Source: an uncultured Verrucomicrobiota bacterium
Lineage (GTDB): Bacteria; Verrucomicrobiota; Kiritimatiellia; RFP12; UBA3636
DNA length: 39,901 nucleotides
Assembly: GCA_947169825.1 (NCBI GenBank)
Contig: CAMVRE010000007.1
Span: forward strand, 1 to 39,901
Reading direction: 5' to 3'
A program made the position numbers and the translations under genes. Below are positions 7,675 to 39,901 of the stretch, in pieces; the first letter of the stretch is position 1; the number at the start of each line of letters is the position of its first letter. The notes below the pieces were generated by a model. That model did not search any database and was not told where the DNA came from. It was given only the letters and a program-made list of their open reading frames with translations.

Positions 7675-7691
7675 CCGGGGCGCGACCTTTT

Positions 7692-7799
7692 GTCCTGTCG
7701 TCGTTTCGTCCTGTCGTCGACCGGCCGTGGAAGGGGGAAGGCCTTCCCCCGGCGAACGGCCAAGGACGACAGGATGACAGGACGACACGACGACAGGAT
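7692..7799. repeat. Inverted pair of degenerate CCTGTCGTC / GACGACAGG arrays around an 18-nt palindrome
   Basis: Left tcctgtcgtcgtttcgtcctgtcgtcgaccggccgt; apex gggggaaggccttccccc (7733-7750); right acggccaaggacgacaggatgacaggacgacacgacgacaggat. Confidence 0.8.
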
Positions 7800-7916
7800 C
7801 ACCCCCGCCCGCCTTCGGGACGAGGGGGACGATTTCTCGTCGTCCCGTCAGCTCGTCGTCTCGTCGTCCTCGCAGGATGCGCATCCAGATAACTTTCGAA
7901 AGAATCAATTGACCCC

Positions 7917-10900: not shown

Positions 10901-13900
10901 ACCGGCGGATCTGGTAATCCCCGAAGGCGTCCGCGGGATCGCCGCGGGGGCGTTCGAGGGCGAATGGGGCATCGGGACGATGTCGCTGCCGGAATCGCTG
11001 CGGTTCGTCGGCGCGCGGGCGTTCAAGGACTGCACGTCGTTGGAAAGCATCTCGGTGCCGGAGGGCGTCGCGAAGATCGACCGGGAGGCGTTCCGCAACT
11101 GTACCTACGCGCAGGGGCTCGCGCTGCCCGGGACGTTGCGCGAGATCGGGGACGGCGCGTTCGCGAACGCGTCGATGCTGATGGGCGCGACGATTCCCGA
11201 CGGGGTCGTGTCGGTCGGCGAATGCGCCTTCTCGAACTGCTGGCGGATGCTGTCGGTCGCGATCCCGCAGAGCGTGGAGCGCGTCGGCGACGGCGCGTTC
11301 GCGGACTGCCGGCGCGTCGCCGGCGTCACGGTGCCGCTGCACGTGCGGCCGATGTCGGAGCTCTTCCCGGCGGCGTATGCCAGCCTCGAAACCATTTCGA
11401 TTTCGAGGCTGGATCTAGAGGCGCTAGAGCATCTAGAAGGTCTAGAGAGCGAAAACGCCATTCAGGCATACATCGCCTCGCGGCAGATGGTGCCGGACGT
11501 GTTCAAGGGGTGCGCGGCGCTGGAGGGGATCGAGCTGCCGGCGTGGGTGCGCAACGTGTCGGACGGGGCGCTGGAGGGATGCTCGGCGATCGCGTCGCTC
11601 GAGCTTCCGGATGCCGTGACGAACGTCGGCGCCCGGGCGTGCGCGGGGATGGCGGCGCTCGAATCGGTCGCGCTACCGGCGTCGCTCGTCTCGATCGGGG
11701 ACGAGGCGTTTGACGGCGACGCGGGGCTCGCGGCGCTGAACCTGCCGGAGGGGCTGCGGACGATCGGCGAGCGGGCGTTCCGGGGGCTCGTGCCGCTGGC
11801 GCGGGCGGAGATTCCGGGAAGCGTCCGGGCGATCGGCGACGGAGCGTTCGCGGGATGCGCGTCGATCCGCGCGGTGTCGATCCCGGGCGATGCGGGGACG
11901 GTCGCGGCGGCGTTCCCGGACTGCTACGCGGACATCGTGTCCGCGACGGTCGTCGCGGAGGACGGCTCGCCCGGAGAGCTCGCCCCGCCGAAACTGACGG
12001 CGGGGCTGTTCGAGGGGTGTGCGGCGCTTACGAGCGTGGAGCTGCCGGCGGAGCTGGCGGAGATCGGCGCGGAGGCGTTCGCGGACTGCACGTCGCTCGC
12101 GGAGATCGGCCTCCCGGCGGCGGTGACGAACCTCGGAGAGCGGGCATTCGCGGGGTGCGGGACGCTTTCGTCGATCGCGCTCCCGAAGAGCCTGGAAGAG
12201 CTGCGGGACGGGACCTTCGCCGGGTGCGCGGCGATGGCGGAGATCGTCGTGCCGGAGAGCGTCCGGCGGTTCGGGAACGGGATATTCTCCGGCTGCACGC
12301 TGCTGCGGTCGGTGCGGTTCGTCGGGAACGCGCCGGACTACGGCACGGCGGACGGCGGCCCCTACGCCGGCGTTCCGGCGGGCGCGAAGAGCTACGTGGC
12401 GAACGGCTCGAAGGGCTGGGACGGCATCGCGACGTCGATGGCGCTGCCGGAATACTGGCCGGCGGACACGACCTACGAGATCGCCTTCTGGACGCCGAAC
12501 CGCTGCGCCGTGTCGTTCGACGCGAACTACGAAGGGGCGGGCGAGCCCGCCGAGGTGGAGCAGGTGACGGGCACGAGCTACGTGCTGCCCCCGAATCCCG
12601 TGCGTCTCGGCGCGCGATTCGACGGCTGGTGGACGGCGCCGGAGAACGGCGCGCGGATCACGGCCTCGACGCAGGTGACGGCGACGCGTCCGCACACGTT
12701 CTACGCGCACTGGACGATGAACCGCTACTACGTGCACTTCGACGCGAACGGCGGGAGCGGGACGGCGGAGCCGGTCGAGATGACGGTCGGGACGCCGGCG
12801 CCGCTGCCGCCGTGCCCGTTCGCGAAGGTGGCCCACGACTTCGCGGGCTGGGCGACGGAGCCGGGCGGCGAGGTCGTCTACGCGGACGGCGCGCAGGTCG
12901 CGGACCTGGCCTACACGCAGAATGCGGCCGTGACGCTCTACGCGGTCTGGCAGGCGCGCGACTGGACGCTCGCCGACTACCTCGACGCGCCGGGGCTCGC
13001 CTTCGAAACGGCGGGCGGCGGCGCGTGGGGCCCGGACTGGAACGACGCCAAGGCGGGCGGCGTGTCGTTGCGATGCGACGGGCTCCCACCCTCTGCCGCC
13101 GGAGGAACCGTCGAGGCCACGCTTCGCTCGACGGTCGTCGGCGCGGGCACGCTCTCCTTCTGGTGGAAGGCGAGCTGCGAAGAGATGGACGACGAATACG
13201 GCGACTGGTTCGACTACGCGGCCTTCTCGGTCGACGGCGTCGAAACCGCGAAGATCGCCGGCGAGAGCGGCTGGCGGAAGGTCGAGTGCGCTGTCGAGGG
13301 CGCGGGCGAGCACGGGCTCGTCTGGGCCTTTGTCCGAGACGACTACGACGAGGATGGCGCCGACTGGGAGAACGCGCTCTGGGTGGACGGCGTCGAGTGG
13401 ACCCCGGCGCCGGTGACGCTCTCGTTCGACGCCGGCGGCGCCACGGAGGGCGCGCCGCCGGCGGCGGTCGTGAAATACGAGGGCTACGCGCTTGCGCTGC
13501 CCGGACCGGGCACGCTCGCCGATCCTCCGCGCGTCTTCGCGGGATGGAGCGACGGCGAGAGCGTCTACGCCGCCGGCGCGACCTATGTCTTCGGTTCGGC
13601 GGACGCCGTCCTTACTGCGGTCTGGACGCTCCAGACCTGGACGCTCGCCGAGGCGGTCGACGCGCCGGCGCTCGTCTTCGCGACGGGCGGCGACGCCGAC
13701 TGGGCGGTCGACGCGACGGCGGGCTGGACGAACGGCGTCTCCGCGAAGAGCGGGAGCGTTACGAACAGCCAGGCGTCCTGGATCGAAACGACGGTGAGCG
13801 GCGCCGGAACGCTCTCGTTCCGCTGGAAGGTGCTGGGCGGCATCTACCGCAACACCCCCTTCGCCTACGCCAAGGCAGAGGTGGACGGGACGCCGGCCTC

Positions 13901-15509
13901 CTCGACGCACCTCACGGACGGATGGGAGGCGCAGGCGCTCGACATCGTCGGCGCCGGGCCGCACACGATCCGATGGACCTACCTTCGGACGTCGGCCCGC
14001 GACTGCGATGGCGACTGTGCCTGGCTCGACGGCGTCGAATGGACGCCGACCGACGCCACGACCATCGTCGTGGAAGGCGTCTCGATCCCGATCTCGTGGC
14101 TCGACGAAGCGGCGGCAACCTTCGTCGCGGCGAACGGCGGCGACTACGCCGCCGCCGCGCGCGCGACGGCCGCCAACGGCCGCAACAAGGTCTGGGAGTG
14201 CTACGTGGCGGGACTCGACCCGACCAACGCGGCTTCGCGATTCCTCGCGACGATCGCTTTCGACGAGAACGGCGTGCCGGACATCGGATGGACGCCGGAT
14301 CTCGGCGGCGCGCGAGACTACGCGGTGGACGGCAAGCTTTCGCTCACGAACGACTGGAGCATCCCAGACGCAGACAGCCGATTCTTCCGCGTCCGCATCG
14401 CGATGCCCGGCGGCTTCGGATTCTACACGATTTCGTTCGATACGGACGGCGGAAGCACCCTCGCGGCAATCACGGCGGCCTACGGCTCGCCCGTGACGGC
14501 GCCGGAGCCGCCGACGAAGGACGGATACGACTTCGCCGGGTGGTCGCCGCCGCTTCCGGCGACGATGCCCGCGCGCAACCTGACGGCGGTCGCGCAGTGG
14601 ACGCCCATCGGCCTCTTCGTCGACGCGGAGTCCGGCGACGATGCCAACGACGGGAGGCAGCGGGCGACGGCCAAGAAGACGATCCAGGCGGCGATCGACG
14701 CCGCGCCGGACGGCGGGACGATCCGCGTCGCGCCGGGGGTCTACGGAACCATCGTCAATTCCGGATCGAAAGCCCTCCGGATCGAAAGCGAGGCCGGACC
14801 GGAGCGGACCGTCATCGATGGACAGGGCAGGAGGCGCTGCGCGAAACTGTCGAACCAGGAAGCGGCCCGCGATCCCTGCGCGACGCTCGTCGGCTTCACG
14901 CTGCGCAACGGTTGCCGAAACGACGCCGGCGTGGGCGGCGCGTATCTGGGGCGGCTGGAAAGCTGCGTCGTCTCAAACTGCGTCGCGGCGAACGAGGCGG
15001 CGGCCGCCGCCAACTGCGAGCTGCTGAACTGTCTCGTCGTCGGCAATGTCGCCAGCAATCTCAACGCCACGACCCGGGGATACATCTGCAACAATGCGGT
15101 TCTGCGGAACTGCACGGTCGTCGGCAACCGGACGGTCGAAGGAAACGGGGCTCCCCTGTTCCGGGGCGGCGTTCTCCGGAACTGCATCGTCTGGGACAAC
15201 GACCGCTTCGGAACGGCGGCGTTCTCGTCCGACACGACCGTGGACCACGTGGCGACGGACGCGGCGGGCGAAGGCGACATTCCGCTTTCGTCCTCGCCGT
15301 TCTCCGACGCCGCGAACGGAGACTACCGGCTCGCGGCGGGATCGCCATGCATCGACGCGGGAGCGGGGACGTTCGAGCCGGACGCGACGGATCTGGCGGG
15401 CAACCCGCGAGTTTCGGGCGCCGCGGTCGACGCCGGTTGTTACGAATGGCAACCGGTGTCGCCGGATTCCACCGGCCTTTCGATTCGCGATTCCGACATC
15501 GGCGAATAG
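7917..15509 (+). CDS. Giant secreted BspA-like protein: LRR_5 arrays, InlB-type B-repeats, jelly-roll-like modules, C-terminal right-handed beta-helix/choice-of-anchor-Q-like domain
   Basis: 2530 aa; signal peptide MKTTLHPLLPALAALLLPCPSFAE; many GCSGLTSITIPDSVTSIGxxAF units; FDANGG...W repeats; C-term SPCIDAGA...DLAGNPRVSGAAVDAGCYEW. Confidence 0.9.
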   Translation: MKTTLHPLLPALAALLLPCPSFAEMQRIGNYMWFYSLSDDSAIVTGVTPESGILAIPNSLGGKAVTSIGNRAFYDCSRLTSVTIPDSVTSIGSSAFRGCSGLTSITIPDGVTSIGYDAFYNCSGLTSITISDGVTSIGYDAFRGCSALTETRINITDNAKWAENSINSKLMGERRLFVNGEEVANFVIPDGVTSIAANAFSGCSGLTSITVPDGVTNIENSAFFGCSGLTSVTIPDSVTRIGNLAFSGCSDLLFDTNTISNVKLVGEWVIGCSELLSGELNLTGIRGIAGGAFSGCSGLTSILIPDGMTSIGDSAFEGCSGLMSITIPDSVTRIGNSAFSECSGLMSVTIGAGRTSLEGVPTSVYEFHIDGDSEFLTEIGGVLFSNDERNLIRFPEKQTGEYSIPDSVTNIEKSAFSGCSGLTSISIPDCVTSIGDGAFQSCSGLTSISIPDGVMSIGGDAFSDCSGLTSITIPDSVTSIGSGAFEGCSGLTSITIPDSVTSIGSGAFEGCSGLTSITIPDSVTSIGGGAFQSCSGLTSISIPDSVTSIGDSTFSRCSGLTSITIPDSVTSIGYYAFYNCSGLTSITIPDSVTSIGDGAFEGCSGLSSLVIGKGVTNIRTYAFRGCSGLVSVAIPRSVTSIGQGAFYGCSSLGKILLPSSFDLGSDNWRLAGSQITRYQIAVDFSANSGTLAGQKTWLPVEVLSEYGKFGSFPSPSRLGYLFSGWELHGAIIQTNNIVNETTNHVVIARWAPIEYRVTFDANGGMLGEGEESKVVAFGAAYGVLPTPTFESHSLKCWSLDGSAVTGQTIVATPFNHVLVAEWNIGIGDGVWEFPEGDGPIALGEPLVAPSGEIVIPDKIDGRPVVEIGADAFAGNASITSITIPSSVTNIADGAFAGCTGLKTVAVDSLRGNRFAAFLPDLAETVERVVFRDGVTAIPDNFFKGCTALRTMDLAESVVDIGTNVFEACSALETVVSNGLEICDGWVLGMANGASAPADLVIPEGVRGIAAGAFEGEWGIGTMSLPESLRFVGARAFKDCTSLESISVPEGVAKIDREAFRNCTYAQGLALPGTLREIGDGAFANASMLMGATIPDGVVSVGECAFSNCWRMLSVAIPQSVERVGDGAFADCRRVAGVTVPLHVRPMSELFPAAYASLETISISRLDLEALEHLEGLESENAIQAYIASRQMVPDVFKGCAALEGIELPAWVRNVSDGALEGCSAIASLELPDAVTNVGARACAGMAALESVALPASLVSIGDEAFDGDAGLAALNLPEGLRTIGERAFRGLVPLARAEIPGSVRAIGDGAFAGCASIRAVSIPGDAGTVAAAFPDCYADIVSATVVAEDGSPGELAPPKLTAGLFEGCAALTSVELPAELAEIGAEAFADCTSLAEIGLPAAVTNLGERAFAGCGTLSSIALPKSLEELRDGTFAGCAAMAEIVVPESVRRFGNGIFSGCTLLRSVRFVGNAPDYGTADGGPYAGVPAGAKSYVANGSKGWDGIATSMALPEYWPADTTYEIAFWTPNRCAVSFDANYEGAGEPAEVEQVTGTSYVLPPNPVRLGARFDGWWTAPENGARITASTQVTATRPHTFYAHWTMNRYYVHFDANGGSGTAEPVEMTVGTPAPLPPCPFAKVAHDFAGWATEPGGEVVYADGAQVADLAYTQNAAVTLYAVWQARDWTLADYLDAPGLAFETAGGGAWGPDWNDAKAGGVSLRCDGLPPSAAGGTVEATLRSTVVGAGTLSFWWKASCEEMDDEYGDWFDYAAFSVDGVETAKIAGESGWRKVECAVEGAGEHGLVWAFVRDDYDEDGADWENALWVDGVEWTPAPVTLSFDAGGATEGAPPAAVVKYEGYALALPGPGTLADPPRVFAGWSDGESVYAAGATYVFGSADAVLTAVWTLQTWTLAEAVDAPALVFATGGDADWAVDATAGWTNGVSAKSGSVTNSQASWIETTVSGAGTLSFRWKVLGGIYRNTPFAYAKAEVDGTPASSTHLTDGWEAQALDIVGAGPHTIRWTYLRTSARDCDGDCAWLDGVEWTPTDATTIVVEGVSIPISWLDEAAATFVAANGGDYAAAARATAANGRNKVWECYVAGLDPTNAASRFLATIAFDENGVPDIGWTPDLGGARDYAVDGKLSLTNDWSIPDADSRFFRVRIAMPGGFGFYTISFDTDGGSTLAAITAAYGSPVTAPEPPTKDGYDFAGWSPPLPATMPARNLTAVAQWTPIGLFVDAESGDDANDGRQRATAKKTIQAAIDAAPDGGTIRVAPGVYGTIVNSGSKALRIESEAGPERTVIDGQGRRRCAKLSNQEAARDPCATLVGFTLRNGCRNDAGVGGAYLGRLESCVVSNCVAANEAAAAANCELLNCLVVGNVASNLNATTRGYICNNAVLRNCTVVGNRTVEGNGAPLFRGGVLRNCIVWDNDRFGTAAFSSDTTVDHVATDAAGEGDIPLSSSPFSDAANGDYRLAAGSPCIDAGAGTFEPDATDLAGNPRVSGAAVDAGCYEWQPVSPDSTGLSIRDSDIGE
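9308..9445 (+). repeat. Exact tandem duplication of one 69-bp LRR unit (9308-9376 and 9377-9445)
   Basis: ttgttccgggctgacatcgatcacgattccggacagcgtgacaagcatcggaagcggcgcgtttgaagg repeated without change. Confidence 0.9.
11406..11450 (+). repeat. In-CDS degenerate 9-bp array (CTAGAG words)
   Basis: gatctagag gcgctagag catctagaa ggtctagag agc, encoding LDLEALEHLEGLES. Confidence 0.75.
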
Positions 15510-25927: not shown

Positions 25928-27394
25928 ATGCCCGCGCACCCCGCCTTCTCGATCCATACCTACGGCTGCCAGATGAACGTCCGCGACTCGGACCTCCTGG
26001 CGCGCCGGCTCCGCGCCGCGGGCTTCGCCGAGGCCGCGTCGGAGGACGAGGCGGACGTCGTCCTCGTCAACTCCTGCTCCGTCCGCGAGAAGGCCGAGGA
26101 GAAGGCGATCGGCAAGCTCGGCATGCTCTGCGCCGCCCGCCGCGACCGCCCCGGGCTCGTCGTCGGCCTCACCGGCTGCATGGCCAACCGCCTCGGCCCC
26201 GACGTCTTCGGCCTCGTCCCCGGGCTCTCCTTCTCCGTCGGCCCCCGCGCCGCCGGCCCCGCGATCGTCGGCCTCGTCCGCCGCGCCCTCGACGGCGCGA
26301 AGGGGATGTTCGTCCCCGACGCGGATGGTCGCACGGTCGCACGGTCACACGGTCACACGGTCGAGCAGTCGGACAATCTCGCGGTCTCACGGTCGGACCG
26401 TCAGACCGTCGGACCGTGCGACCGTGCGACCACGAAGGAGGCCGGCGCGGACGAGCCGCACGGCTCGTCCGCGCCGGCCTCCTTCGTGACGATCTTATTC
26501 GGCTGTAACCAGCGCTGCTCCTACTGCATCGTGCCGTCGGTGCGCGGCGGCGAGGAGAGCCGGGACCCGCGTGCGATCGTCGCCGAGGTCCGCGAGGAGG
26601 CGGCGCGCGGCGCGAAGGACGTGTGCCTCCTCGGCCAGAGCGTGATGCGCTACGGCCGCATGGGCTTCGCCTGGCCGGAGGGCCTCCCCTCCCCCATGGG
26701 CTTCTCGGAGCCGCTCCCGCGCCTCCTGGAATATATTGCGCGCGAGGTGCCGGAGGTGCGCCGGCTGCGGTTCACGTCGGGCCATCCCTCGGGCGTCACG
26801 GACGAGCTCGTCCGCGCGATGCGCGAGATTCCCGCCGTCTGCCCGCACCTGCACCTGCCGATGCAGAGCGGCTCGGACCGCATCCTGCGCGAGATGCGCC
26901 GGGGCTACGACTCCGCGCGCTACCTCGCCGCCGTCCGCCGCCTGCGCGAGGGCGTCCCCGACATCGCGATCACGACGGACATCATCGTCGGCTACCCGGG
27001 CGAGACGGAAGAGGACTTCGAGGACACGCGCCGCGTCATGGAGGAGGCGGGCTTCGACAACGCGTTCGTCTTCAAGTATTCGCCGCGCCCCGGCACGCCC
27101 TCCGCGCTCCTCGAGGACGACGTCCCCGACGAGGAGAAGCGCCGCCGCGACCAGGTCCTGCTCGCCGACCAGGACGCGCGCGGCCAGCGCTGCAACGACC
27201 GCTGGGTCGGCCGCACCGTCGAGGTCCTCGCCGAAGGCCCCTCCCTGCGCAACCCCGCGCGCTGGTCCGGCCGCACCGGACAGAACAAGATCGTCGTCTT
27301 CGACCCCGCCCCCGGCCTCCGCGCCGGCGACTTCGTCTGCGTCTCCGTCTCCTCCGCCCGCCCCCAGACCCTCTACGGTGAAATCGCCGGCTGA
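25928..27394 (+). CDS. miaB: tRNA-2-methylthio-N6-dimethylallyladenosine synthase (MiaB family) with expanded interdomain linker
   Basis: IHTYGCQMNVRDSD; NSCSVREKAEEK; GCNQRCSYCIVPSVRGGEESR radical SAM CxxxCxxC; TDIIVGYPGETEEDF. Confidence 0.95.
   Translation: MPAHPAFSIHTYGCQMNVRDSDLLARRLRAAGFAEAASEDEADVVLVNSCSVREKAEEKAIGKLGMLCAARRDRPGLVVGLTGCMANRLGPDVFGLVPGLSFSVGPRAAGPAIVGLVRRALDGAKGMFVPDADGRTVARSHGHTVEQSDNLAVSRSDRQTVGPCDRATTKEAGADEPHGSSAPASFVTILFGCNQRCSYCIVPSVRGGEESRDPRAIVAEVREEAARGAKDVCLLGQSVMRYGRMGFAWPEGLPSPMGFSEPLPRLLEYIAREVPEVRRLRFTSGHPSGVTDELVRAMREIPAVCPHLHLPMQSGSDRILREMRRGYDSARYLAAVRRLREGVPDIAITTDIIVGYPGETEEDFEDTRRVMEEAGFDNAFVFKYSPRPGTPSALLEDDVPDEEKRRRDQVLLADQDARGQRCNDRWVGRTVEVLAEGPSLRNPARWSGRTGQNKIVVFDPAPGLRAGDFVCVSVSSARPQTLYGEIAG
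26326..26432 (+). repeat. In-CDS inverted degenerate 8-bp array (GGTCGCAC / GACCGTGC words)
   Basis: Outer arms tggtcgcacggtcgcacggtc (26326-26346) and gaccgtgcgaccgtgcgacca (26412-26432) are perfect inverted copies. Confidence 0.85.
26431..26488. repeat. Perfect palindrome with 28-bp arms and 2-nt loop inside miaB
   Basis: cacgaaggaggccggcgcggacgagccg - ca - cggctcgtccgcgccggcctccttcgtg. Confidence 0.95.
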
Positions 27395-27412
27395 CCGATC
27401 GCCCATCTCCCC

Positions 27413-27439
27413 TCTCTCGTCACTCGTCACTCGTCACTC
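27413..27439 (+). repeat. 7-bp array (CACTCGT words) between miaB stop and hslO start
   Basis: ctctctcgtcactcgtcactcgtcactc. Confidence 0.8.
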
Positions 27440-27443
27440 CCCC

Positions 27444-28331
27444 GTGGTCAAGCCCCGCACCAACGACGCCGCCGTCGAGGCGTTCTGCCCCAAGACCCGC
27501 CTGCGCTTCCTCTACGCGGACGTGTCCGCGACGGCGCGCCGCCTCGCGAAGGCGCACGGCGACTCGCCCGCCGCCGCCGCGATCCTCGGCAAGGTGCTCG
27601 CCGGCACGGCCGCCGCGACGATCGACTTCAACGAGCCCGGCGAGCGGCTCGTCGTCGCGGCCAACGTCAAGGGCCCGCTCGGCGGCTGGCGCGCGGAGAT
27701 CTCCGGCGAGGGGTTCCTCACGGGCTCGCTCCAGGAGCACGACCCCGAGTCGCTGCGCAATGCGGGCGACGGCGCCGACGAGTGGTGCGGCCCCGGCGCC
27801 GCCGCCAAGGCGACGCGCCTGCGCGAGGACGGCACGATTCGCTCGCAGGTCTCCTTCGAGTGCAAGGGGGGCGCGCCCGAGTCCGTCTACGCCGCGCTCT
27901 TCTGCTCCGCCGTCCCGACGCGCCTGCGCCTCGTCTGCACGATGTTCGACGGCGAGATCGATCGCGCCCGCGCCCTCGCGCTGCAGCTCGTCCACGAGGG
28001 CTCGCGCCGCGCCTTCAAGCGCGTGGAGAAGCTGTTCGACGACGGCACCGTCGCCGACACGCTCGCCTTCGACGCGACGCTCCCGACGCTCCGCGAGATC
28101 CTCGGCGTCGAGGATCTCGTGACCGGCCCCACGCGCGCGATCGCCTTCGGCTGCACCTGCTCCGAGAAGCGCTTCCTCGACGCCTACGCCGCGCTCCCGC
28201 GCGAAACCCTTGAGGGGATGCTCCGCCCCCTCCGCCCCCGCGAGGAACGCTGCCACCTCTGCGGACGCCGCTACACCATCACCCCCGAGCAGCTTGTCCA
28301 AGTCCTCCAATCCAAAACCGAAACGAAATGA
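27444..28331 (+). CDS. hslO: Hsp33-family redox chaperone
   Basis: GTG start VVKPRTNDAAVEAFC; VAANVKGPLGGWRAEISGEGFLTGSL; C-terminal FGCTCSEKR...CHLCGRRY zinc cysteines. Confidence 0.85.
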   Translation: MVKPRTNDAAVEAFCPKTRLRFLYADVSATARRLAKAHGDSPAAAAILGKVLAGTAAATIDFNEPGERLVVAANVKGPLGGWRAEISGEGFLTGSLQEHDPESLRNAGDGADEWCGPGAAAKATRLREDGTIRSQVSFECKGGAPESVYAALFCSAVPTRLRLVCTMFDGEIDRARALALQLVHEGSRRAFKRVEKLFDDGTVADTLAFDATLPTLREILGVEDLVTGPTRAIAFGCTCSEKRFLDAYAALPRETLEGMLRPLRPREERCHLCGRRYTITPEQLVQVLQSKTETK

Positions 28332-28966: not shown

Positions 28967-28975
28967 CCCGCTTCC

Positions 28976-29030
28976 GCTCGCCACTCGCCACTCGTCACTC
29001 GTCACTCGTCACTCGTCTCTCGTCACTGTC
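28976..29030 (+). repeat. 7-bp array (CACTCGT words) immediately upstream of the PHP gene
   Basis: gctcgccactcgccactcgtcactcgtcactcgtcactcgtctctcgtcactgtc. Confidence 0.85.
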
Positions 29031-30065
29031 ATGCGCAAGCACCTCCTCCCGCCGGACCGCAACTGGTACCGCGCGAACTTCCACTGCCACTCCCACCTCT
29101 CCGACGGCTACTGGCCGCCTGCGCGCCTCCGCGACGAATACAAGAAGGCCGGCTACCAGATCCTCGCCATCACCGATCACAACGTCCTCGTCGACCACTC
29201 GGACCTCAACGACCCGGACTTCCTCACGCTCACCTCCGTCGAATACGACATCACGGACTGGGACTCGCGCCTGCCCGTCGCCCGGCCGGACGCCAACGTC
29301 TGGAACTACCGCTTCCACGACACGTTCCACCTCAACCTCTTCTCCAAGGTTCCGAATCCCGCCGGCCCTCCCGCGCGCGACACGATCTGGGGCGTCCAGC
29401 ACAACTGCTTCGAGGGCTCCGAGGAGGAGAAGGCGCGGAAGAAGCCCTTTTCCCTGGACGCCGTGAACGAGGTGGTCGCGAAGGCGAACGAGGCCGGCTT
29501 CCTCGTCCAGTACAACCACCCGAACTGGTCGCGCAACGTCCGCTCCGACTGGCTCGGGCTGAAGGGGATCTGGTCGCTCGAGATCCTCAACTACGCCACC
29601 GAGTGCCTCACCGGCGGCGAATACTGCCCCTACGTCTACGACGACCTGCTCAACCACGTCTCGCCCCGCATCTTCTGCACGATGGGCGACGACAACCACA
29701 ACCGCGACGGCACCACGCTTCAGTCCTTCGGCGGCTCGACGATCATCGGCGCCGAGTCGCTCGACTACGCGTCCGTGATCCGCGCGCTGGAGAAGGGCGA
29801 GTTCTACTGCTCCTCCGGCAGGACCGACCCGCCGCGCATCCTCGCGCTCTACGTCGAGAGCGGCGTCGTCCACGTCGACTGCACGCCCGCCTCGTTCGTC
29901 TTCTTCGTGGGCGACGGCCGCCGCTACGCGAACAAGCGCGGCGAGGGCGTGACGCACGCCGAGTTTCCGCTCGGAAGGGACGACGGCTGGTTCCGCGTCG
30001 CCGTCCGCGACGACCGCGGCAACACCGCCCACACGCACGCCTACCTCGTCGACGAGTGCCGCTAG
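29031..30065 (+). CDS. PHP-domain metal-dependent phosphoesterase-like protein
   Basis: NFHCHSHLSDGYWP; ILAITDHNVLVDH; QYNHPNW; ATG at 29031. Confidence 0.8.
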   Translation: MRKHLLPPDRNWYRANFHCHSHLSDGYWPPARLRDEYKKAGYQILAITDHNVLVDHSDLNDPDFLTLTSVEYDITDWDSRLPVARPDANVWNYRFHDTFHLNLFSKVPNPAGPPARDTIWGVQHNCFEGSEEEKARKKPFSLDAVNEVVAKANEAGFLVQYNHPNWSRNVRSDWLGLKGIWSLEILNYATECLTGGEYCPYVYDDLLNHVSPRIFCTMGDDNHNRDGTTLQSFGGSTIIGAESLDYASVIRALEKGEFYCSSGRTDPPRILALYVESGVVHVDCTPASFVFFVGDGRRYANKRGEGVTHAEFPLGRDDGWFRVAVRDDRGNTAHTHAYLVDECR

Positions 30066-30099: not shown

Positions 30100-31350
30100 G
30101 TGGAACGCATCGGCATCTTCGGCGGGAGCTTCGACCCCGTGCACGCCGGGCATCTGGCGCTCGCGCGCCGGGCGCTCGAGGCCGTGCCGCTGGACCGCGT
30201 GCTCTTCGCCCCGGCCGCCGACTCGCCCTTCAAGGTCGGGCGGATGAACGCCCCCGCGGAGGACCGCCTCGCGATGCTGGAGCTCGCGATCGCCGGCGAG
30301 CCGCGCTTCGGGATCTGCCGCGCCGACCTCGACCGCGGCGGCGTCTCCTACACCGTGGACCTCGTCGCCGACGTCCGCGCGGCGCACCCGGACTCGGAGC
30401 TCTTCTTCCTCCTCGGCGCGGACTCCCTCGCCGGCCTGCACCGCTGGCGCCGCGCCGCGGAGCTCGTCGCGATGTGCCGCTTCGTCGGCTTCGGCCGCCC
30501 CGGATTCCGCCTCGACCCGGACGCCCTCGGCTTCGACCCCGCCACGAACGCCCGTCTCGCGGCGGACTTCGTCCCCGACTTCGCCGAGCCCGCCTCCTCC
30601 ACCGAGGTCCGCGCCCGCCTCGCCGCCGGCGAGGACGTCTCCTCCCTCCTCCCCTCCCCCGTCGCCGCCTACATCCGCGACCGCGGCCTCTACCGCCCCG
30701 CTCCAGCACCGTCCGCGCCCCGCGCGAACGTCGTATCGATTCTTCTTCCCGTTCTCTGCTTCGAGTTGGCCGCCCTGTCCCTCGCCCTGGGCGTGGCGGG
30801 GTTGTTGCTCAGCCTCCCGTTTCTCGGAATCGCCTTTCTGTGGGCGGCCGGCGGATTCCTTCTGGCGAGCGTTGCGGTCCGCGCCGTCAGAGCCGGAAAG
30901 AACGGCGGAAAACGGACCTTGGCGTTCGCTTGCACGGCCGTTCTCGCCGTCGCTTCATTCTATTCGTTCTTTTCCGCGGTCTCTTCGTTCGCGGCGTGGC
31001 GGGCGCCTTACGACATCAGCGATGCGTTCGGAGACGACGCCTATCCGGGCTTGATCGAAATCGTCGGATTCCGCTACCACCCGCCGACGCCCTGGTCCGA
31101 GTCGTCCTACGAGGCGCGGACGGAATTCCGCGCCGCCAGCCCGCGCTTCTTCTGCGAAGAAACGGATTCGGGAGCGGAACGCGTCGGCGCCGACGTCGCC
31201 CGGCTCGCGATCCGGAAAGCCCGCAAGGCGTTCCGCGCCTTCCGTCCCGATTCCGGGGAAGCGGTGTTCGTCGTCGCACGGAACGGCGCCCCGCGCTGGA
31301 CGATCGTCCTCGGCGAAAACCCCTCCGAATGCGTCGTCCTCGCCGAATGA
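30100..31350 (+). CDS. nadD: Nicotinate-nucleotide adenylyltransferase fused to a C-terminal multi-TM plus soluble domain
   Basis: IGIFGGSFDPVHAGHLALAR; FFLLGADSLAGLHRW; SSTEVRARLAAGEDVSSLLPSPVAAYIRDRGLY, then ~190 aa with TM segments LLPVLCFELAALSLALGVAGLLLSLPFLGIAFLWAAGGFLLASVAV and LAFACTAVLAVASFYSFFSAVSSF. GTG start chosen; ORF track start is 30082. Confidence 0.88.
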   Translation: MERIGIFGGSFDPVHAGHLALARRALEAVPLDRVLFAPAADSPFKVGRMNAPAEDRLAMLELAIAGEPRFGICRADLDRGGVSYTVDLVADVRAAHPDSELFFLLGADSLAGLHRWRRAAELVAMCRFVGFGRPGFRLDPDALGFDPATNARLAADFVPDFAEPASSTEVRARLAAGEDVSSLLPSPVAAYIRDRGLYRPAPAPSAPRANVVSILLPVLCFELAALSLALGVAGLLLSLPFLGIAFLWAAGGFLLASVAVRAVRAGKNGGKRTLAFACTAVLAVASFYSFFSAVSSFAAWRAPYDISDAFGDDAYPGLIEIVGFRYHPPTPWSESSYEARTEFRAASPRFFCEETDSGAERVGADVARLAIRKARKAFRAFRPDSGEAVFVVARNGAPRWTIVLGENPSECVVLAE

Positions 31351-31363
31351 CCCGCTCCTCTCG

Positions 31364-31884
31364 AATTTTCAACTTCCAACTTTGAACTTTAAACTCCAAT
31401 GAGCCGCCCGCGCCCGCCCGGCGCTTGGCCGCGCCATCTTCCATTGTGCATTGTGCATTCTGCATTGTGCATTGCACACGGCGCCCGACTTCGTCGATTG
31501 CGTCGATTCGGTCGATTGGGTCGACCGGCCGCTCGCCGGGGAGGCCCGCCCCCGATTCCGGCCCGTCGACGACAGGACGACGGGACGACGGGCTGACGAG
31601 ACGACAAGATTGCGCCTCCAGGCGCTTCGCGGAAGCGAGGCCCGATTGCTCGTCGTCCCGTCTTCTTGTCATCTCGTCGTCCTCCAAGGCCGCGCCCTCC
31701 CCCATTGTGCATTGTGCATTCTGCATTGTGCATTGAACATAGCCGCGCCCGACTTCGTCGATTGCGTCGATTCGGTCGATTGCGTCGATTCGGTCGATTG
31801 CGTCGCCCGGCCGCACTCCGGGAAAGGCCTCCCCTGCCCCAGCTTCTCGACGAAACCGACGACGCCGACGACATCGACGAACCA
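31364..31884. repeat. Composite intergenic locus of 7-, 8- and 9-bp degenerate arrays
   Basis: CTTNNAA (31364-31400), CATTGTG (31441-31474), TCGATTG/C (31491-31524), GACGACGG (31566-31609), inverted CTCGTCGTCC (31649-31683), CATTGTG (31702-31735), TCGATTG/C (31755-31803), CGACGAxxC (31849-31884). Confidence 0.9.
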
Positions 31885-32959: not shown

Positions 32960-35900
32960 TCAGCTCCTGAACGTTACCGTGCATCCATTCGGAATGTTCA
33001 TTCGGGACGTTTTTCCGCGGAAACGCCCAGGAAGCGAAAGCAATGTCAGCCCGGAACAATTTTCAAACACGTATTCCCCGATGCTCGTCACGCTGTCCGG
33101 AATCGTGAGCGACGTCAGCCCGGAACAACCCCAGAACGCAGCGCCCCCGATGCTCGTCACGCCATCCGGAATCGTGATCGACGTCAGCCCGGAACACCAG
33201 GCAAACGCATAGCCACCAATGCTCGTCACGCTGTCCGGAATCGTGATCGATGTAAGTCCGGAACAACCTGAAAACGCATCGCCACCGATGCTCGTCACGC
33301 TGTCCGGAATCGTCGTGTTCATGCACCCGACCACGAGGACATTATTCGCCGAATGGACGATTGCCATGCAATTGTCACGGGAGTCGTAAGCCGGGTTGTT
33401 TGGATCGACCGTGATCGACGTCAGCCCAGAACAACCGTTAAACGCGTGGTTCCCGATGCTCGTCACGCTGTCCGGAATCGTGATAGAGGCCAGCCCGGAA
33501 CAACCGGAAAACGCTCCGTCCGCGATGTTCGTCACGCTGTCCGGAATCGTGATTGAAGTGAGTTCGGAACAACCGGAAAACGCATAGTTCCCGATGCTCG
33601 TCACGCTGTCTGGGATCGTGAGCGACGCCAGCTCGGAACAACCGGAAAACGCAGAGTCCCCGATGCTCGTCACGCCGTCCGGAATCGTGAGCGACGTCAG
33701 CCCGGAGCAACCGTAAAACGTATAGTTCCCGATGCTCGTCACGCCGTCCGGAATCGTGATCGACGTCAGCCCGGAACACCAGGAAAACGCAGAGTCCCCG
33801 ATGCTCGTCACGCCGTCCGGAATCGTGAGCGACGTCAGCCCGGAACAAACGTAAAACGCAGAGTCCCCGATGCTCGTCACACTGTCAGGAATCGTGACCG
33901 ACTTCAGCTCGGAACAATTGGAAAACGCCTCACTCCCGATGCTCGTCACGGGCAGACCGTCGATTTCGGCTGGAATGACAAAGTCTCCGGTTGGTTCCTG
34001 CAGAGTTCCCGTAATCGTGACGGTGCCGCCTGAAACAGTCCAGGAGAGAACTTCTTCGGGCATCCACTGCGCCGTGAGCGTCGCGCCGCCGAGCGGCATC
34101 GTCGCCGGGAACGCCGGCGACCAGCCGGCAAACATAAAACCATCGCGCGTCGGGGGCGACGGTGCGGTCAGCGCCGCACCGTAGGGAGCCGTGATGGACG
34201 CGACGGCGCTGCCGCCGGCGCTGTCGAACGAAATCGTGTAGCTGCGCGGTGTCCACTGCGCCGTGAGCGTCGCGCCGCCGATCGGCATCGTCGCCGGGAA
34301 TGCCGGCGACCAACCGGTGAACGAGTAGCCGTCCCTCGTCGGGGCGTTTGGCGCGGCGAGGGCCGAACCGTAGGGAGCCGTGATAGGCTCGACCGCGCTG
34401 CCGCCGTTTGCGTCGAAACGCAGGGTGAAGACGTCCGGCGTCCAGACCACTTCGTCCACCCAGCCGCAGTCGGAGCCGGAGGAGCCGCTGCCATCCTTGT
34501 CGTAGCGCCAGCGCAGAACGTGGACGCCGGCGCCGGAGACCGGAAAGGATTCCTGCGCCCAGGTGCCGCCCGTCCCGCTGACGCCCGCCTGCTGCGATCC
34601 GTCGACGAAAAAGCGCAGGCAGTCACAGTCGTCTTCGCTCGAGGCCTTCCACCAGAAGCTCACCGCGCCGGGACCGGTCACCGTGGTTTCGATCCACGTG
34701 CTCTGGCCGTCGGCGATCGCGCCGCTACGAGCGGCGAAGACGCCGTCGTGCGTGTCGTCGCTTTGGACGAACCACTCGGCTGAGCCGCCCTTCGTGAAGA
34801 CGAGGTCCGGGTTGAGAGCCCGCGCAAGCGACACCTGCCATGCCGCCACGAGGGTCAAGTCGCACCACGGGACCGCGGTCGTTTCGTCCGCCGGCAGACC
34901 GCCCGTTGCGCGCGTCCGCCACCCGAAGAAGTCGTAGCCGTCCCGCACCGGCACCGGCAGCAGGCCGAGAGCGCCCGGCGCATCGTAGGTCCGCGTGGCG
35001 GGGTCCACGGTGCCGCCGGCCGGGTCGAAGGTCACGACGACCGAACCCGGCCAGGCGCGCTCGTCCACGCCGCTTGCGCTCCCGAGCGCCACGCGCACCT
35101 GGTAGAACCGGTGCGACGGCTCGACCGGGCACGACCATTCGTCCGCCAGGTCCGCCTTGCCCCAGACGGTATAGACGCGCCCTGCGACGTTCGACGGCCA
35201 CCACGTCACGACCGGTTCGCCGCCGTCCATGTCGATGAACACCCGGAAGTCGTCCTCCTTCGTCGGATCCAGCCCCGCCACGTAGCATTCCCAGACCGGG
35301 CGCCCGTTCTCCGCCGTGGCGAGGGCCGCCGCCTCGAACGCGGCGTCCGGCGCACCCTCCGCCGCGAGACCGTGCGAGACGAGCCAGTCGAGCGGCACCG
35401 GCGCGGGCGTCGTCGCCGTCGCGCCGGGAACCGCCGCGGCCCCGGTCCACGACACGCGGTCCAGATACCCGCGGTCCTCCGCCGATCCCATCTCGTTCCA
35501 GAAGACGAATCGGACCTCGTGCGATCCCGCGCCGGCAATCGCGACGGACACCTTGATCCAGGAGCCAGCCTCATCGCTTTCGATCCAGGTTTTCGTTACT
35601 TCGTCGACCACGAGGTCGATGCCGGAGCCGCCCGCTGAGTCGAGCCGCCACGACCAGGAGAGCGTGCCGGGACCGACGAGCGTCGTCGAGAGGATGCTGT
35701 CGTCGGCGGTTCCGGCCGGACCGCTCGCGGCGGCGTCCTCCCCGTCCGCCGTCGTCTTCGTCTGCGGCGTCCAGGCGTTGCTCCCCTCGCTCGTCCAGAC
35801 GAGTCCCGGAGCGTCGAGCGCCGTTGCCAGTCCCGTCGGCTGCGCCGTCAGCACGATGTTGCGCGGGCCGTCGCACGGGACCGCGATCGTCCGCGCCGCC

Positions 35901-38900
35901 GCATCCAGCGCCACGCCGTTCGTGTCGCCGCCGAGCGTCACGGCGCAGTCCCCCTCCCAGAAGACGTCGAACGCCACTTCGAGCGCCGTTCCCGCCGCGC
36001 GCCAGCCCGCCTCGAAGTCCGCTACGACCGGTCCCTTCGCTTCAAGCGAAATCCAGTGGTCCGTCCGCCAGTTCCACGCGAGCGTCGAATCCTCCTGCAT
36101 CGTGAACGAGACCGACGAGCCCGAGCCGCTCGCCGGGACGCTCCCCGTCCCGGTCCATCCCGTGCAGAGGCGTCGCGTGCCGTCCTCCTCCGGCGGTGCC
36201 GCCACGCTCGCGGTCACCATGTCGCCCCACGAGTGCATGTAGGTCCCCGGAGCCGGCGATGCCGTCCCGAACGCGCTTGACACCGCGAGCGAGACCTTGC
36301 GCTCCGTAATCGTCGCACGGATCGTCCGCGGACCGTCGGCCGGGACGGAGAGCATCGATCCGGAGCGTGTCACGCCCTCCGTATCGCCCGAGAGCGCCAG
36401 GTCGTAGAGCGTCCAGTCCGGAGAAAGCGCCACCGAAAGGATCGTTCCCTCCGCCGCCCATTGCGGCCGGATCGCCGTCGTCCCGCCGCTTTCCACCGCG
36501 ACGTCGATCCAATGCTCCGTCCGCCAGTTCCACGTAAGAGACGAATCCCCCTCGACCGTGAACGTCATGTTCGTTCCCGTGCCACTCGCCGGGACGCTCC
36601 CCGTCCCCGTCCAGCCCGTGCAGACGCGGCGCGTCTTTCCGCCCGCCGTCGGAGCCGGCGGCTCGACGCTTGCCGCGACCTTCTCCCCCCAATAGACGAC
36701 GTTCGTTCCAGCCGCCGGAGTCGGCGTGCCGTCCTTGCTCGACACCGTCAGCGCGTGGCGGGACTGCCAGCACACGTCGTCGAGGAACGCCGCGCCGCCC
36801 GCCCCCGAGCCTCGCTCGAATGTCCAGCGCAACGCGTGCTCGCCCGCCCCGAGCTCCAGTGGGCCGACCGCAGCCCAGTCCGTCGAGCGCGTGATCTCGG
36901 CCTTGTTCGTCCCGTCCACGTAGAAGCGGGCGTAGTCGCTGCGGTTCGCGGTAATCTTCCACGAGAACGAAATCCGCCCCGGGCCGACGACCGCCGTTTC
37001 GAGCGCGTTCGTCCCGCCCTGCGCCACTTCGCCGCTTTGCAGACAGAATCCGTCGGCCCGCGAGTTGTCCGCCACCGCGAACCAGGGCGCGTCTGCACCA
37101 TCCGACCACGGGAGCGGCTTGCCTGTTCCGCTCTCTCCCGCCTCGCCGCGCGTCAGCACATGCAGTCCCACCGCGCGCGGCCGGTCCGCCGGAATCGCGA
37201 TCGTCCCGATCGACGGGTCGACCGTAACGCCGTTCGCGTCACCGGACAGGACATACGAGAACGGCCGCGTGGCGGGCGCGAAGGCGAACACGGCCGCTTC
37301 GCCGTCCTTCCGGAACCAACCGCTTCCCGGTCCCGATAGCGCGGCGTCGCCCGACAACTCGCACTCGATCCAGACATTCGTCTCGCCCCACAACCATGTG
37401 ATCGACGAATCTTCGAGCATCAGCACGTCGACCCGGTTGCTCGTTCCGCTCGCCGGGACGCTCCCGGTCCCCGTCCAGCCAGTGCACACATAGCGAACGC
37501 CCGGGTTCCCGGAATCGACCACCGACGCCTCGGCCGAACAGCGGACGACGAAATTCGACGGAACCTTGTGCGTGCCGAGGAACGGATCCGCGCCGCCGTG
37601 TTCCGACACGACGGACAGATACACAGGATCGTACCGAATGATCGTGCAGCCCGACGGGACCGCCGGCGTTCCGGAATACGACCTCGACAGATACAGCGTT
37701 TTCAGTCCGGAACAACCGGAAAACGCAGAGTCCCCGATGCTCGTCACGCTGTCTGGGATCGTGAGCGATGTCAGCTCGGAACAACCGGAAAACGCAAAGC
37801 TCCCGATGCTCGTCACGCTGTCTGGGATCGTGAGCGACGCCAGCTCGGAACAACCGAAAAACGCGGAATCCCCGATGTTCGTCACGCTGTTCGGAATCGT
37901 AATCGACGTCAGTCCGGAACAACCGGAAAACGCGGAATCCCCGATGCTCGTCACGCTGTTTGGAATCGTAAACGATGTCAACCCGGAACAACCGGAGAAC
38001 GCACGGTTTCCGATGTTCGTCTCGCTGTCCGGAATCGTAATCGACGTCAGTCCGGAACAACCGGAAAACGCGGAATCCCCGATGTTCGTCACGCTATCCG
38101 GAATCGTAATCGACGTCAGTCCGGAACAACCGGAAAACGCGGAATCCCCGATGCTCGTCACGCTGTTTGGAATCGTAAGCGACGTCAACCCGGAACACCA
38201 GGCAAAGGCAGAGGCCCCAATGCTCGTCACACTGTCCGGAATCGTAACCGACGAGAAGCCGGAACAACCGGAAAACGCCGAGTTCCCGATGTACGTCAGA
38301 CCGTCCGGAATCATCAGGTCTTTGATTTCGGCCCCGTCCAGGAATAGACGATGTGCATAGCGGCAGGGGTTGGCATAGGGACCGGCAAAGTCAATGTCAC
38401 ACCATGCCGCCAAATCGGAGATGTGGACCGACGTAAGGCCGGAACAACCGGAGAACGCAAAACGCCCGATGCTCGTCACGCTGTCCGGAATCGTGACCGA
38501 CGAGAGCCCGGAACAACCGGAAAACGCCCGGGCCCCGATGCTCGTTACGCCGTCCGGAATCGTGATCGACGAGAGGTCCGAGCAACCGGAAAACGCCCAT
38601 TCCCCGATGCTCGTCACGCCGTCCGGGATCGTTGCAACGCCATGGATGCCGACAATCAGTTTTTTGGCATCTTTCGAGAGCAATAGCCCGTTTCTGGAAG
38701 AGTAGGTCGAATTGCTCTCGTCGACGACAACCGACGTCAACCCGGAACAACCGTAAAACGCCCCGTGCCCGATGCTCGTCACGCTATCCGGAATCGTGAC
38801 CGACGAGAGCCCGGAACAATCTCGAAACGCATCGCTTCCGATGCTCGATACTCCGCCCGGAATCGAAATCGACATGAGATCGGAACAACCGGAAAACGCC

Positions 38901-39901
38901 CGGTTCCCGATGTTCGTCACGCTGTCCGGAATCGCGACCGACGCGAGGCCGGAACAATCGGAAAACGCATCGTTCCCGATGATCGTCACGCTGCCCGGGA
39001 TCGTGACCGACGTCAGCCCGGAACAACCGGAAAACGCATCGTTCCCGATGCTCGTCACGGTGCGCGGAATGAGAAGTTCCGTGAGCTCTTCGCCATCGGC
39101 AAACAGTCGCCTGTTTCCTCTCAGTTTGGAATTGATGGAATTGGTGGCCCACTTTGCAATATCGGTGACGTTGATTCTCTTTTCCACCAGCCTGGAGCAA
39201 CCGGAAAACGCACGGCTCCCGATTCTCTTCATGCCATCCGGAATCGCGACCGATGTCAGCCCGGAACAACCATAAAACGCCCATTCGCCGATGCTTGTCA
39301 CACTGTCCGGAATCGTGACCGTCGTCAGTCCAGCGCAATTTTCAAACGCCCGGTCCCCGATTCTCGTCACGCCGTCTCCGATCGTGACCGACGTCAACCC
39401 GGAGCAATCTTCAAATGCAGATCCCCCGATGCTCGTCACGGAGTCGGGAATCGTAACCGACGTCAGCCCGCGACAATAGTCAAACGCATGATCCCCGACG
39501 CTCGTCACGCCGACCGGAATCATGATTGACGTCAGCCCGGAACAAACGTAGAACGCTCTGAACCCGATGTTCGTCACCGAGTCGGGAATCGTCACCGACG
39601 TCAGCGCGCGACAATAGTCGAACGCAGAATCCCCGATGCTCGTCACGCCGTCCCCGATCGCGACCGACGTCAGGCCGGAACAATCGTGAAACGCACCGCT
39701 CCCGATGCTTCTCACGCTGCCCGGAATCGTGACCGACATCAGCCTGGTGCAATTCTCAAACGCAGAGTCCCCGATGCTCGTCACGGAGTCGGGAATCGTG
39801 ACCGACGTCAACCCGGAACAACCTCGAAACGCACTGTCCCCGATGCTCGTCACGCCGTCCGGAATCGTAATCGACGTCAGCCCGGAACAACCGGAAAACG
39901 C
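32960..39901 (-). CDS. Giant BspA-like LRR_5 protein, N-terminus beyond the right edge
   Basis: Frame open to the window end; LRR arrays at ~37.7-39.9 kb and ~33.0-33.95 kb separated by jelly-roll-like, WTGTGSVPASG and InlB B-repeat-like modules. Confidence 0.9.
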   Translation of the reverse strand, partial: AFSGCSGLTSITIPDGVTSIGDSAFRGCSGLTSVTIPDSVTSIGDSAFENCTRLMSVTIPGSVRSIGSGAFHDCSGLTSVAIGDGVTSIGDSAFDYCRALTSVTIPDSVTNIGFRAFYVCSGLTSIMIPVGVTSVGDHAFDYCRGLTSVTIPDSVTSIGGSAFEDCSGLTSVTIGDGVTRIGDRAFENCAGLTTVTIPDSVTSIGEWAFYGCSGLTSVAIPDGMKRIGSRAFSGCSRLVEKRINVTDIAKWATNSINSKLRGNRRLFADGEELTELLIPRTVTSIGNDAFSGCSGLTSVTIPGSVTIIGNDAFSDCSGLASVAIPDSVTNIGNRAFSGCSDLMSISIPGGVSSIGSDAFRDCSGLSSVTIPDSVTSIGHGAFYGCSGLTSVVVDESNSTYSSRNGLLLSKDAKKLIVGIHGVATIPDGVTSIGEWAFSGCSDLSSITIPDGVTSIGARAFSGCSGLSSVTIPDSVTSIGRFAFSGCSGLTSVHISDLAAWCDIDFAGPYANPCRYAHRLFLDGAEIKDLMIPDGLTYIGNSAFSGCSGFSSVTIPDSVTSIGASAFAWCSGLTSLTIPNSVTSIGDSAFSGCSGLTSITIPDSVTNIGDSAFSGCSGLTSITIPDSETNIGNRAFSGCSGLTSFTIPNSVTSIGDSAFSGCSGLTSITIPNSVTNIGDSAFFGCSELASLTIPDSVTSIGSFAFSGCSELTSLTIPDSVTSIGDSAFSGCSGLKTLYLSRSYSGTPAVPSGCTIIRYDPVYLSVVSEHGGADPFLGTHKVPSNFVVRCSAEASVVDSGNPGVRYVCTGWTGTGSVPASGTSNRVDVLMLEDSSITWLWGETNVWIECELSGDAALSGPGSGWFRKDGEAAVFAFAPATRPFSYVLSGDANGVTVDPSIGTIAIPADRPRAVGLHVLTRGEAGESGTGKPLPWSDGADAPWFAVADNSRADGFCLQSGEVAQGGTNALETAVVGPGRISFSWKITANRSDYARFYVDGTNKAEITRSTDWAAVGPLELGAGEHALRWTFERGSGAGGAAFLDDVCWQSRHALTVSSKDGTPTPAAGTNVVYWGEKVAASVEPPAPTAGGKTRRVCTGWTGTGSVPASGTGTNMTFTVEGDSSLTWNWRTEHWIDVAVESGGTTAIRPQWAAEGTILSVALSPDWTLYDLALSGDTEGVTRSGSMLSVPADGPRTIRATITERKVSLAVSSAFGTASPAPGTYMHSWGDMVTASVAAPPEEDGTRRLCTGWTGTGSVPASGSGSSVSFTMQEDSTLAWNWRTDHWISLEAKGPVVADFEAGWRAAGTALEVAFDVFWEGDCAVTLGGDTNGVALDAAARTIAVPCDGPRNIVLTAQPTGLATALDAPGLVWTSEGSNAWTPQTKTTADGEDAAASGPAGTADDSILSTTLVGPGTLSWSWRLDSAGGSGIDLVVDEVTKTWIESDEAGSWIKVSVAIAGAGSHEVRFVFWNEMGSAEDRGYLDRVSWTGAAAVPGATATTPAPVPLDWLVSHGLAAEGAPDAAFEAAALATAENGRPVWECYVAGLDPTKEDDFRVFIDMDGGEPVVTWWPSNVAGRVYTVWGKADLADEWSCPVEPSHRFYQVRVALGSASGVDERAWPGSVVVTFDPAGGTVDPATRTYDAPGALGLLPVPVRDGYDFFGWRTRATGGLPADETTAVPWCDLTLVAAWQVSLARALNPDLVFTKGGSAEWFVQSDDTHDGVFAARSGAIADGQSTWIETTVTGPGAVSFWWKASSEDDCDCLRFFVDGSQQAGVSGTGGTWAQESFPVSGAGVHVLRWRYDKDGSGSSGSDCGWVDEVVWTPDVFTLRFDANGGSAVEPITAPYGSALAAPNAPTRDGYSFTGWSPAFPATMPIGGATLTAQWTPRSYTISFDSAGGSAVASITAPYGAALTAPSPPTRDGFMFAGWSPAFPATMPLGGATLTAQWMPEEVLSWTVSGGTVTITGTLQEPTGDFVIPAEIDGLPVTSIGSEAFSNCSELKSVTIPDSVTSIGDSAFYVCSGLTSLTIPDGVTSIGDSAFSWCSGLTSITIPDGVTSIGNYTFYGCSGLTSLTIPDGVTSIGDSAFSGCSELASLTIPDSVTSIGNYAFSGCSELTSITIPDSVTNIADGAFSGCSGLASITIPDSVTSIGNHAFNGCSGLTSITVDPNNPAYDSRDNCMAIVHSANNVLVVGCMNTTIPDSVTSIGGDAFSGCSGLTSITIPDSVTSIGGYAFAWCSGLTSITIPDGVTSIGGAAFWGCSGLTSLTIPDSVTSIGEYVFENCSGLTLLSLPGRFRGKTSRMNIPNGCTVTFRS

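Follow-up and report, generated by a model that had tools for sequence, protein, structure and literature searches.

The window is a 39,901-nt stretch of the genome of an uncultured Verrucomicrobiota bacterium (genome G000), and the locus studied here (31364-31884) lies between nadD and a downstream gene whose DUF2971 match is weak (E = 0.008, under the Pfam cut-off). A preliminary description of this nadD-to-DUF2971 region as a series of degenerate 7-, 8-, and 9-bp arrays was right about the arrays, but its name for the downstream gene is doubtful. At least eight arrays had been proposed and eight were present, seven of them recovered by period scans or TRF and the eighth by eye and by folding. 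The features of the locus are as follows.

31361-31399, unstranded: degenerate 7-bp array of ACTTTNA words, directly 3' of the nadD stop codon; found by a period-7 scan and kept in relative G006 bar one base.
31427-31560, + strand: block copy 1, consisting of a 7-bp array (CATTGTG words), a 9-bp array (CGTCGATTN words), a GTCGACCGGCCGC junction, and a G+C-rich tail.
31441-31474, + strand: 7-bp array of block 1, the 34-nt exact copy (period scan/TRF 31442-31474).
31482-31525, + strand: 9-bp array of block 1, containing the 37-nt exact copy (period scan/TRF 31492-31524).
31562-31686, unstranded: hairpin element with 8-bp GACGACNN arms (31566-31609 and 31649-31683), identified by BLAST to a dispersed family and by folding.
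31566-31609: 8-bp array, forward hairpin arm (period scan/TRF 31568-31605, period 8).
31649-31683: the eighth array, reverse-complement arm of the 8-bp array (by eye and fold).
31688-31835, + strand: block copy 2, a 7-bp array and a 9-bp array with two extra words (BLAST against block copy 1).
31702-31735, + strand: 7-bp array of block 2, the 34-nt exact copy (period scan/TRF 31703-31735).
31746-31806, + strand: 9-bp array of block 2, the 37-nt exact copy plus an 18-bp expansion that makes the two extra words (scan/TRF 31756-31805, periods 9/18).
31848-31881, unstranded: weak 9-bp array, CGACGAAAC / CGACGACNN (TRF score 40).

As had been reported, the 34-nt string at 31441-31474 recurred at 31702-31735 and the 37-nt string at 31482-31518 recurred at 31746-31782, both identical to the base. 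A single direct block duplication encloses both strings: BLAST aligned 31427-31524 to 31688-31788 with 92/101 identical columns and a 3-bp gap. None of the nine differing columns of this ~101-bp duplication (91%) fell within the strings, and identical columns made up 69/69 within them versus 23/32 outside (Fisher p = 1.3e-5, a value to be read with the caveat that the block alignment was anchored on the arrays). One plain duplication could account for both blocks in the window. An inverted 8-bp pair was correctly placed between the two copies, where the hairpin lies and where 31562-31690 folds at -64.9 kcal/mol (z = -4.1). Block copies elsewhere had also been envisaged, and a search of the genome found the full composite block nowhere else.

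The number of blocks at the locus was none in G008, one in G006, and two in the window. In G008, whose NadD is 96% identical, nadD stops normally and is directly followed by a glycerophosphodiesterase-like gene, without the tail and without arrays. G006, which is 97% identical in nucleotide sequence, carries the same nadD C-terminal extension, the first 7-bp array, an orthologue of block copy 1 (31427-31560; absent in G008), and the hairpin, which is followed by the downstream gene of G008 (GDPD-like). Block copy 2 (31688-31835) is absent from G006, and in the window it is followed by a different gene. The shared 7-bp array reads CATTGTG CATTGTG CATTCTG CATTGTG in the window and CATTCTG CATTGCG CATTGAG CATTGCG in G006, with all five differences at two free positions. 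Rather than gradual copy-number change alone, which the preliminary description had set against its own reading, syntenic relatives differed by the presence or absence of whole blocks and, at other sites, by swapped word families. The NadD C-terminal extension (window 30700-31347; ~216 aa, with hydrophobic stretches) is common to G006 and absent in G008, and Pfam gave it only a weak DUF6541 hint (E = 0.03).

Tandem short units exceeded chance, as do long simple sequence repeats of the 5-11-bp microsatellite class. Work on G000 used a 440-kb sample together with searches; in this sample, a lag-autocorrelation scan at a score of at least 17 found 17, 8, and 14 arrays of periods 7, 8, and 9, respectively, and none of periods 2, 4, 5, 10, 11, or 13, and shuffled sequence (second-order Markov) gave no array of period 7, 8, or 9 at that score. 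The only enriched unit lengths were 7, 8, and 9, plus multiples of 3. Three successive GCATTNN words (GCATTNNGCATTNNGCATT) matched 258 times in G000 and 155, 101, and 73 times in G006, G008, and G010; the reversed control matched 0 times in each of these four genomes, and most other genera of the order had no match to the GCATTNN pattern. Across 46 GCATTNN arrays (197 words), minor letters made up 2-9% of five core columns and 32% and 52% of the other two. The same layout was seen in ACTTTNN, CGAACCNN, GACGACNN, GGTTGAANN, and GTCGATTNN, and by our generalization a core plus about two variable bases would be the common word plan, giving units of 7, 8, and 9 bp.

Arrays of one word occupied many loci, and the words formed many separate families. 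Arrays elsewhere in the order had other words (CTCTGTT and CAAGCTTC in G021, CCTAGGNNN in G003), and word dialects therefore differ between species; 100 kb sampled from G011 had no period-7 or period-8 array. G003, a same-genus relative with a different dialect, also has long CCTAGG+NNN 9-bp arrays with hypervariable triplets (L466:14565-14760). The GCATTNN pattern occurred in more than 100 stretches from Cyanobacteria, Bacteroidota, Clostridia, Acidobacteria, and others, and we considered and rejected its being a universal word moved between phyla: in a viral collection, two control words of the same layout were found in 68 and 35 stretches versus 116 for GCATTNN, and since control words are likewise common, sharing across phyla is not good evidence of transfer.

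The hairpin at 31562-31686 belongs, as a diverged member, to a dispersed family of ~110 bp, for which BLAST found five full members in sampled G000 contigs outside the window plus one at 7767-7871 in the window, the less diverged of the two window members and part of a run of 8-bp arrays (7688-7868, unstranded). This family is itself separate from the word-array families. The idea of a dispersed, modular repeat element family thus held for dispersal and modularity but not for a single family, as there are many word families and the hairpin has its own. GACGAC pairs have a common loop and constitute the ~110-bp family, whereas the spacers of GCATT pairs were mutually unrelated. Opposite-facing arrays of one word no more than 150 bp apart had a fixed polarity, AATGC..GCATT in 9/9, GACGAC..GTCGTC in 7/7, and GGTCG or ACGGTC in 7/7 cases, counts of which some include one site in two relatives. 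RNA folds of inverted pairs were strong (z = -4.1 to -10.2). Perfect fold-back copying as the source of inverted pairs was rejected, as the arms differ at free positions (L003, by eye). In addition, 9-bp and 8-bp arrays repeatedly adjoined a CGGCCGGTCGAC junction beside a G+C-rich palindrome. The modules of the locus (arrays, hairpin, and junctions) recur elsewhere, and the locus is therefore a mosaic in which short-word arrays are combined with small hairpin modules, both of a type scattered through the genus, one sample of a genus-wide feature.

For ~40 array sites, we compared the orthologous positions in G006 and G008 and, in some cases, in G009 and G010. A different word family between intact flanks of the usual identity was found at 8 or more of the ~40 sites in relatives ~97% identical, a count based on alignments read by eye and on sites picked from arrays of one genome and then of one relative. 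Flanks at swapped sites were ~95-98% identical, which is the genome norm (e.g., 97/95.5%, 98/97%, 99.5/97%). The swaps, with alternative words separated by a slash, and one site that differs in copy number only, are as follows.

Histidine kinase gene: CATTGTG / CACTCGT, with CATTCAG in G006.
L012: GAATGCT pair / TGACGAG, with GGTTCGCA in G010 and no array in G009.
27394-27447 of the window, unstranded: 7-bp array between genes, CTCGTCA, with a CATTCAG array in G006.
L015: CATTCAG / CACTCGT.
L102:14792: 9-bp ATGGTCGTG / 7-bp GAATGCT.
L137:2325: 8-bp GGTCACAC / 7-bp GAATGCT.
carA: CTCGTCA / CCAACCA.
L129:8712: 8-bp / 9-bp.
28967-29031 of the window, unstranded: 7-bp CTCGTCA array directly before a start codon, with fewer copies in G008.

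A site in a solute-binding protein gene had a third state in G009. Other sites were unchanged (L023:2748, L123:8335) or empty in a relative (L011, L117:2300, L112:5502). Gain or loss of units within one word, the microsatellite pattern, described many sites at which copy number alone differed (among them L119, L138, and L102:18118) and failed at 8 or more of the ~40.

Arrays also lay inside genes, as placed by Pfam matches and orthologue frames: between HisKA and HATPase_c in a histidine kinase, between Helicase_C and HA2 in an HrpA-like helicase, after Toprim in DnaG primase, within the solute-binding-protein domain, within GATase in CarA, and in a PTPS-related membrane protein. Three further examples are in the window.

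26318-26436, unstranded: inverted 8-bp array pair, GGTCGCAC ... GTGCGACC, in frame in miaB, where it separates UPF0004 from Radical SAM; shared with G006 but missing from G008 and G009; fold z = -6.5.
3434-3513, - strand: 9-bp array, in frame in a Ser/Thr protein kinase gene; G008 has non-array sequence of equal length instead.
4251-4330, - strand: 9-bp CTCTGCGCT array, also in this kinase gene, close to where the kinase domain begins.

Length differences were multiples of 3 in 14/14 distinct comparisons at seven Pfam-supported genes versus 2/10 intergenic comparisons (p = 6e-5). Units of 7 and 8 bp are not multiples of 3, and these length differences therefore show selection on the reading frame. 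The array-carrying genes work, and their arrays are most likely translated; the CarA sequence, for example, is IRKILGLIPCDDSLVTRHSSLVTPMTGGPRPPVMGICLGHQ in G008 and IRKILGLSSHPTTQPPNHQTTKPIPVMGICLGHQ in G000. In dnaG, G000 (L025) has an inverted 7-bp array pair, in place of which G006 (L168) and G008 (L183) have a copy, likewise in frame, of the abundant dispersed G+C-rich palindromic repeat of the CCCCCTC...GGGGGAGC type.

The explanation that best fits these results, to which we assign a probability of roughly 50%, is strand slippage together with array-level copying or replacement between dispersed arrays, filtered by the reading frame. Ordinary slippage would alter copy number; array-level copying, by ectopic conversion or by template switching in break or fork repair, might use any dispersed array as donor and overwrite or seed arrays at tolerated sites; and selection would then purge frame-breaking outcomes. 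At the present locus, a recent local duplication would have put the 7-bp / 9-bp / GC-rich junction block beyond the hairpin element. First, a new word in every unit between ~97% identical genomes is not explained by slippage, which favors array-level copying. Second, independent re-insertion at one codon is unlikely, which we take to point the same way. The earlier claim that the arrays look copied or constrained as blocks and not made independently by slippage appears right at its core: arrays would be copied or replaced as units at least in part, but slippage clearly also acts, as at the many sites that differ only in copy number. A stronger proposal, that arrays at fixed sites, including codons of housekeeping genes, are actively overwritten from a genome-wide library of word arrays with no need for a reverse transcriptase, is tentative and somewhat doubtful. 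It is probable that the arrays themselves are neutral or mildly selfish; the mRNA hairpins, leader sequence, and linkers in proteins would be side effects.

Several alternatives deserve consideration. The swaps could go back to old alleles that homologous recombination has spread among strains, with no present replacement in place, and whole-allele import from unsampled strains could yield swaps without local copying. In the histidine kinase gene, the array of the more distant G009 and G010 is nearly identical to that of G000, an indication of allele exchange. Recombination as the whole account is nevertheless unlikely, as the flanks of swapped sites show the identity usual for the genome and the problem of how several word families first reached one codon is left unexplained.

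A reading in which a transposase such as Y1 (RAYT) mobilizes non-autonomous REP/BIME- or MITE-like hairpins, with the arrays as their arms, is unlikely by a similar measure. A dispersed family with 8-bp arms and a conserved loop, the fixed polarity (9:0, 7:0, 7:0), and Y1_Tnp genes in G000, G002, G006, G008, G009, and G010 are consistent with such elements. The spacers of most array pairs are unrelated, however, many arrays are single, and no target-site duplication of the MITE or IS kind was seen by eye at the empty sites compared. Moreover, array-rich G021 has no Y1_Tnp match and some genomes with Y1 have few such arrays; Y1 (RAYT-like) enzymes may therefore mobilize the hairpins, but arrays do not require them. 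That RAYT presence causes arrays was rejected, as it did not consistently track array content.

Slippage of degenerate microsatellites alone, with shared words and exact copies incidental, has a still smaller chance of being right. It accords with the many sites that differ in copy number only and with period 7 being the commonest long unit in bacteria (survey of Mrazek, 2007, as cited in PMC4679880). The recurrence of a word across many unlinked loci, the constant polarity of inverted pairs, and exact copies across diverged spacers speak against it, and as a full account it is contradicted by the swapping of whole word families at fixed sites in ~97% identical genomes; slippage stays part of the process. 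Retention of the arrays by selection for a function, as translation leaders, transcript hairpins, terminators, or protein-binding sites, is more improbable again: the conserved core with free bases, the strong hairpins, and several arrays directly before start codons, as proposed for TAACTGA (PMC4679880), would suit it, but gain, loss, and word change are fast at orthologous sites, arrays also lie in coding linkers, and no common gene class carries them. Misassembly of repeats is very improbable, for although all the genomes appear to be incomplete, fragmented drafts of hundreds of contigs, the arrays (30-140 bp) are short enough to fit within ordinary reads, independent genomes have the same states, and frame was kept in 14/14 comparisons. 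Template-driven addition by a reverse transcriptase (as a retroelement, DGR, or retron product), suggested by a unit regularity like that of templated repeats, is the least probable and largely refuted as far as drafts allow, with no RVT_1 (PF00078) in G000, G002, G006, G008, G009, G010, or G021, all array-rich and 66-95% complete.

Slippage with array-level copying and replacement can be set beside known repeat systems. Rickettsia palindromic elements are conserved 100-150-bp hairpin-forming repeats found in frame in many conserved protein genes; the hairpins here are likewise in frame in conserved genes (histidine kinase, HrpA, DnaG, MiaB, SBP, CarA), but the Rickettsia elements share element sequence, whereas here the recurring parts are the arms alone, which are word arrays, and the spacers of GCATTNN pairs are unrelated. 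The BIMEs and REPs of enterobacteria are dispersed mosaics of small palindromic modules and short motifs, with REP units being 20-40-bp palindromes that are tied to RAYT enzymes; these mosaics are not known to contain word arrays. Dispersed short palindromic modules are found here as well (the hairpin family and the GC-rich CGGCCGGTCGAC junction modules), and the difference is the word arrays. Y1_Tnp occurs in the present genus, and array-rich G021 has no match to it.

Close relatives differ in the Xanthomonas (GGGANTN)n repeats, and the GGGAATC / (GGGANTN)n arrays of Xanthomonas and Nostoc resemble ours in their partly fixed heptamers, inverted arrays, and changes of length and sequence between close relatives, but differ in having G-quadruplex words, an intergenic location, and a family identity that is kept at each site (PMC4692102). 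TAACTGA arrays of Beggiatoaceae are, like ours, numerous dispersed heptamer arrays, often directly before start codons, rarely inside ORFs, and patchy in distribution; they consist of one near-invariant word, mostly direct, and no word swapping, inverted pairs, or other unit lengths are reported (MacGregor, PMC4679880). Closest to our case is the P6b stem in the tRNA-Leu(UAA) intron of Nostoc, which is built of one of two degenerate heptamers, TDNGATT or NNTGAGT, one class having repeatedly replaced the other (PMC4476775). As here, degenerate 7-bp words with fixed and free positions form a stem, and classes replace each other at one site in related strains. There, however, two classes and one intron stem are involved; here, numerous words occupy many loci, unit lengths are 7, 8, and 9 bp, and some arrays lie in frame within protein genes. 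With respect to cyanobacterial STRRs generally, the dispersed degenerate heptamers with fixed and free positions match (46 GCATTNN arrays, 258 pattern matches), but the words are not the known ones, unit lengths are several, and the host is apparently non-cyanobacterial.

Short tandem arrays in bacteria are usually put down to slippage alone. Unrelated words at orthologous sites of nearly identical genomes, in genes for primase, helicase, tRNA modification, and pyrimidine synthesis and with the frame intact, call for a replacement process, which to our knowledge has so far been described at one intron stem in Nostoc. As far as could be checked, what is new here is the scale, the three unit lengths, and the in-frame replacement of words inside conserved protein genes. 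Dozens of sites per genome are available for studying array replacement, and conserved proteins can bear fast-changing linkers of array-coded peptide.

Some further observations concern the surroundings of arrays. In L102, the intergenic spacers at 1217-1340 and 2142-2250 are successive arrays that run from the stop codon, or just past it, to the next ATG; they are nearly G-free and might serve as unstructured leaders. A further dispersed G+C-rich palindromic repeat, of the CCCCCTC...GGGGGAGC type, is very abundant; it is found at L102:14255-14381 and 6788-6848, and its near-identical copies in G006, G008, and G009 number in the dozens, some of them adjoining 7-bp arrays. In the window, two neighboring AAA_14/DUF4143 ATPase genes (4493-5695 and 6322-7479, - strand) have hairpin-family arrays nearby, and two giant BspA-like leucine-rich-repeat ORFs with 69-bp (23-aa) repeats lie on opposite strands at 7917-15509 and 32960-39853.
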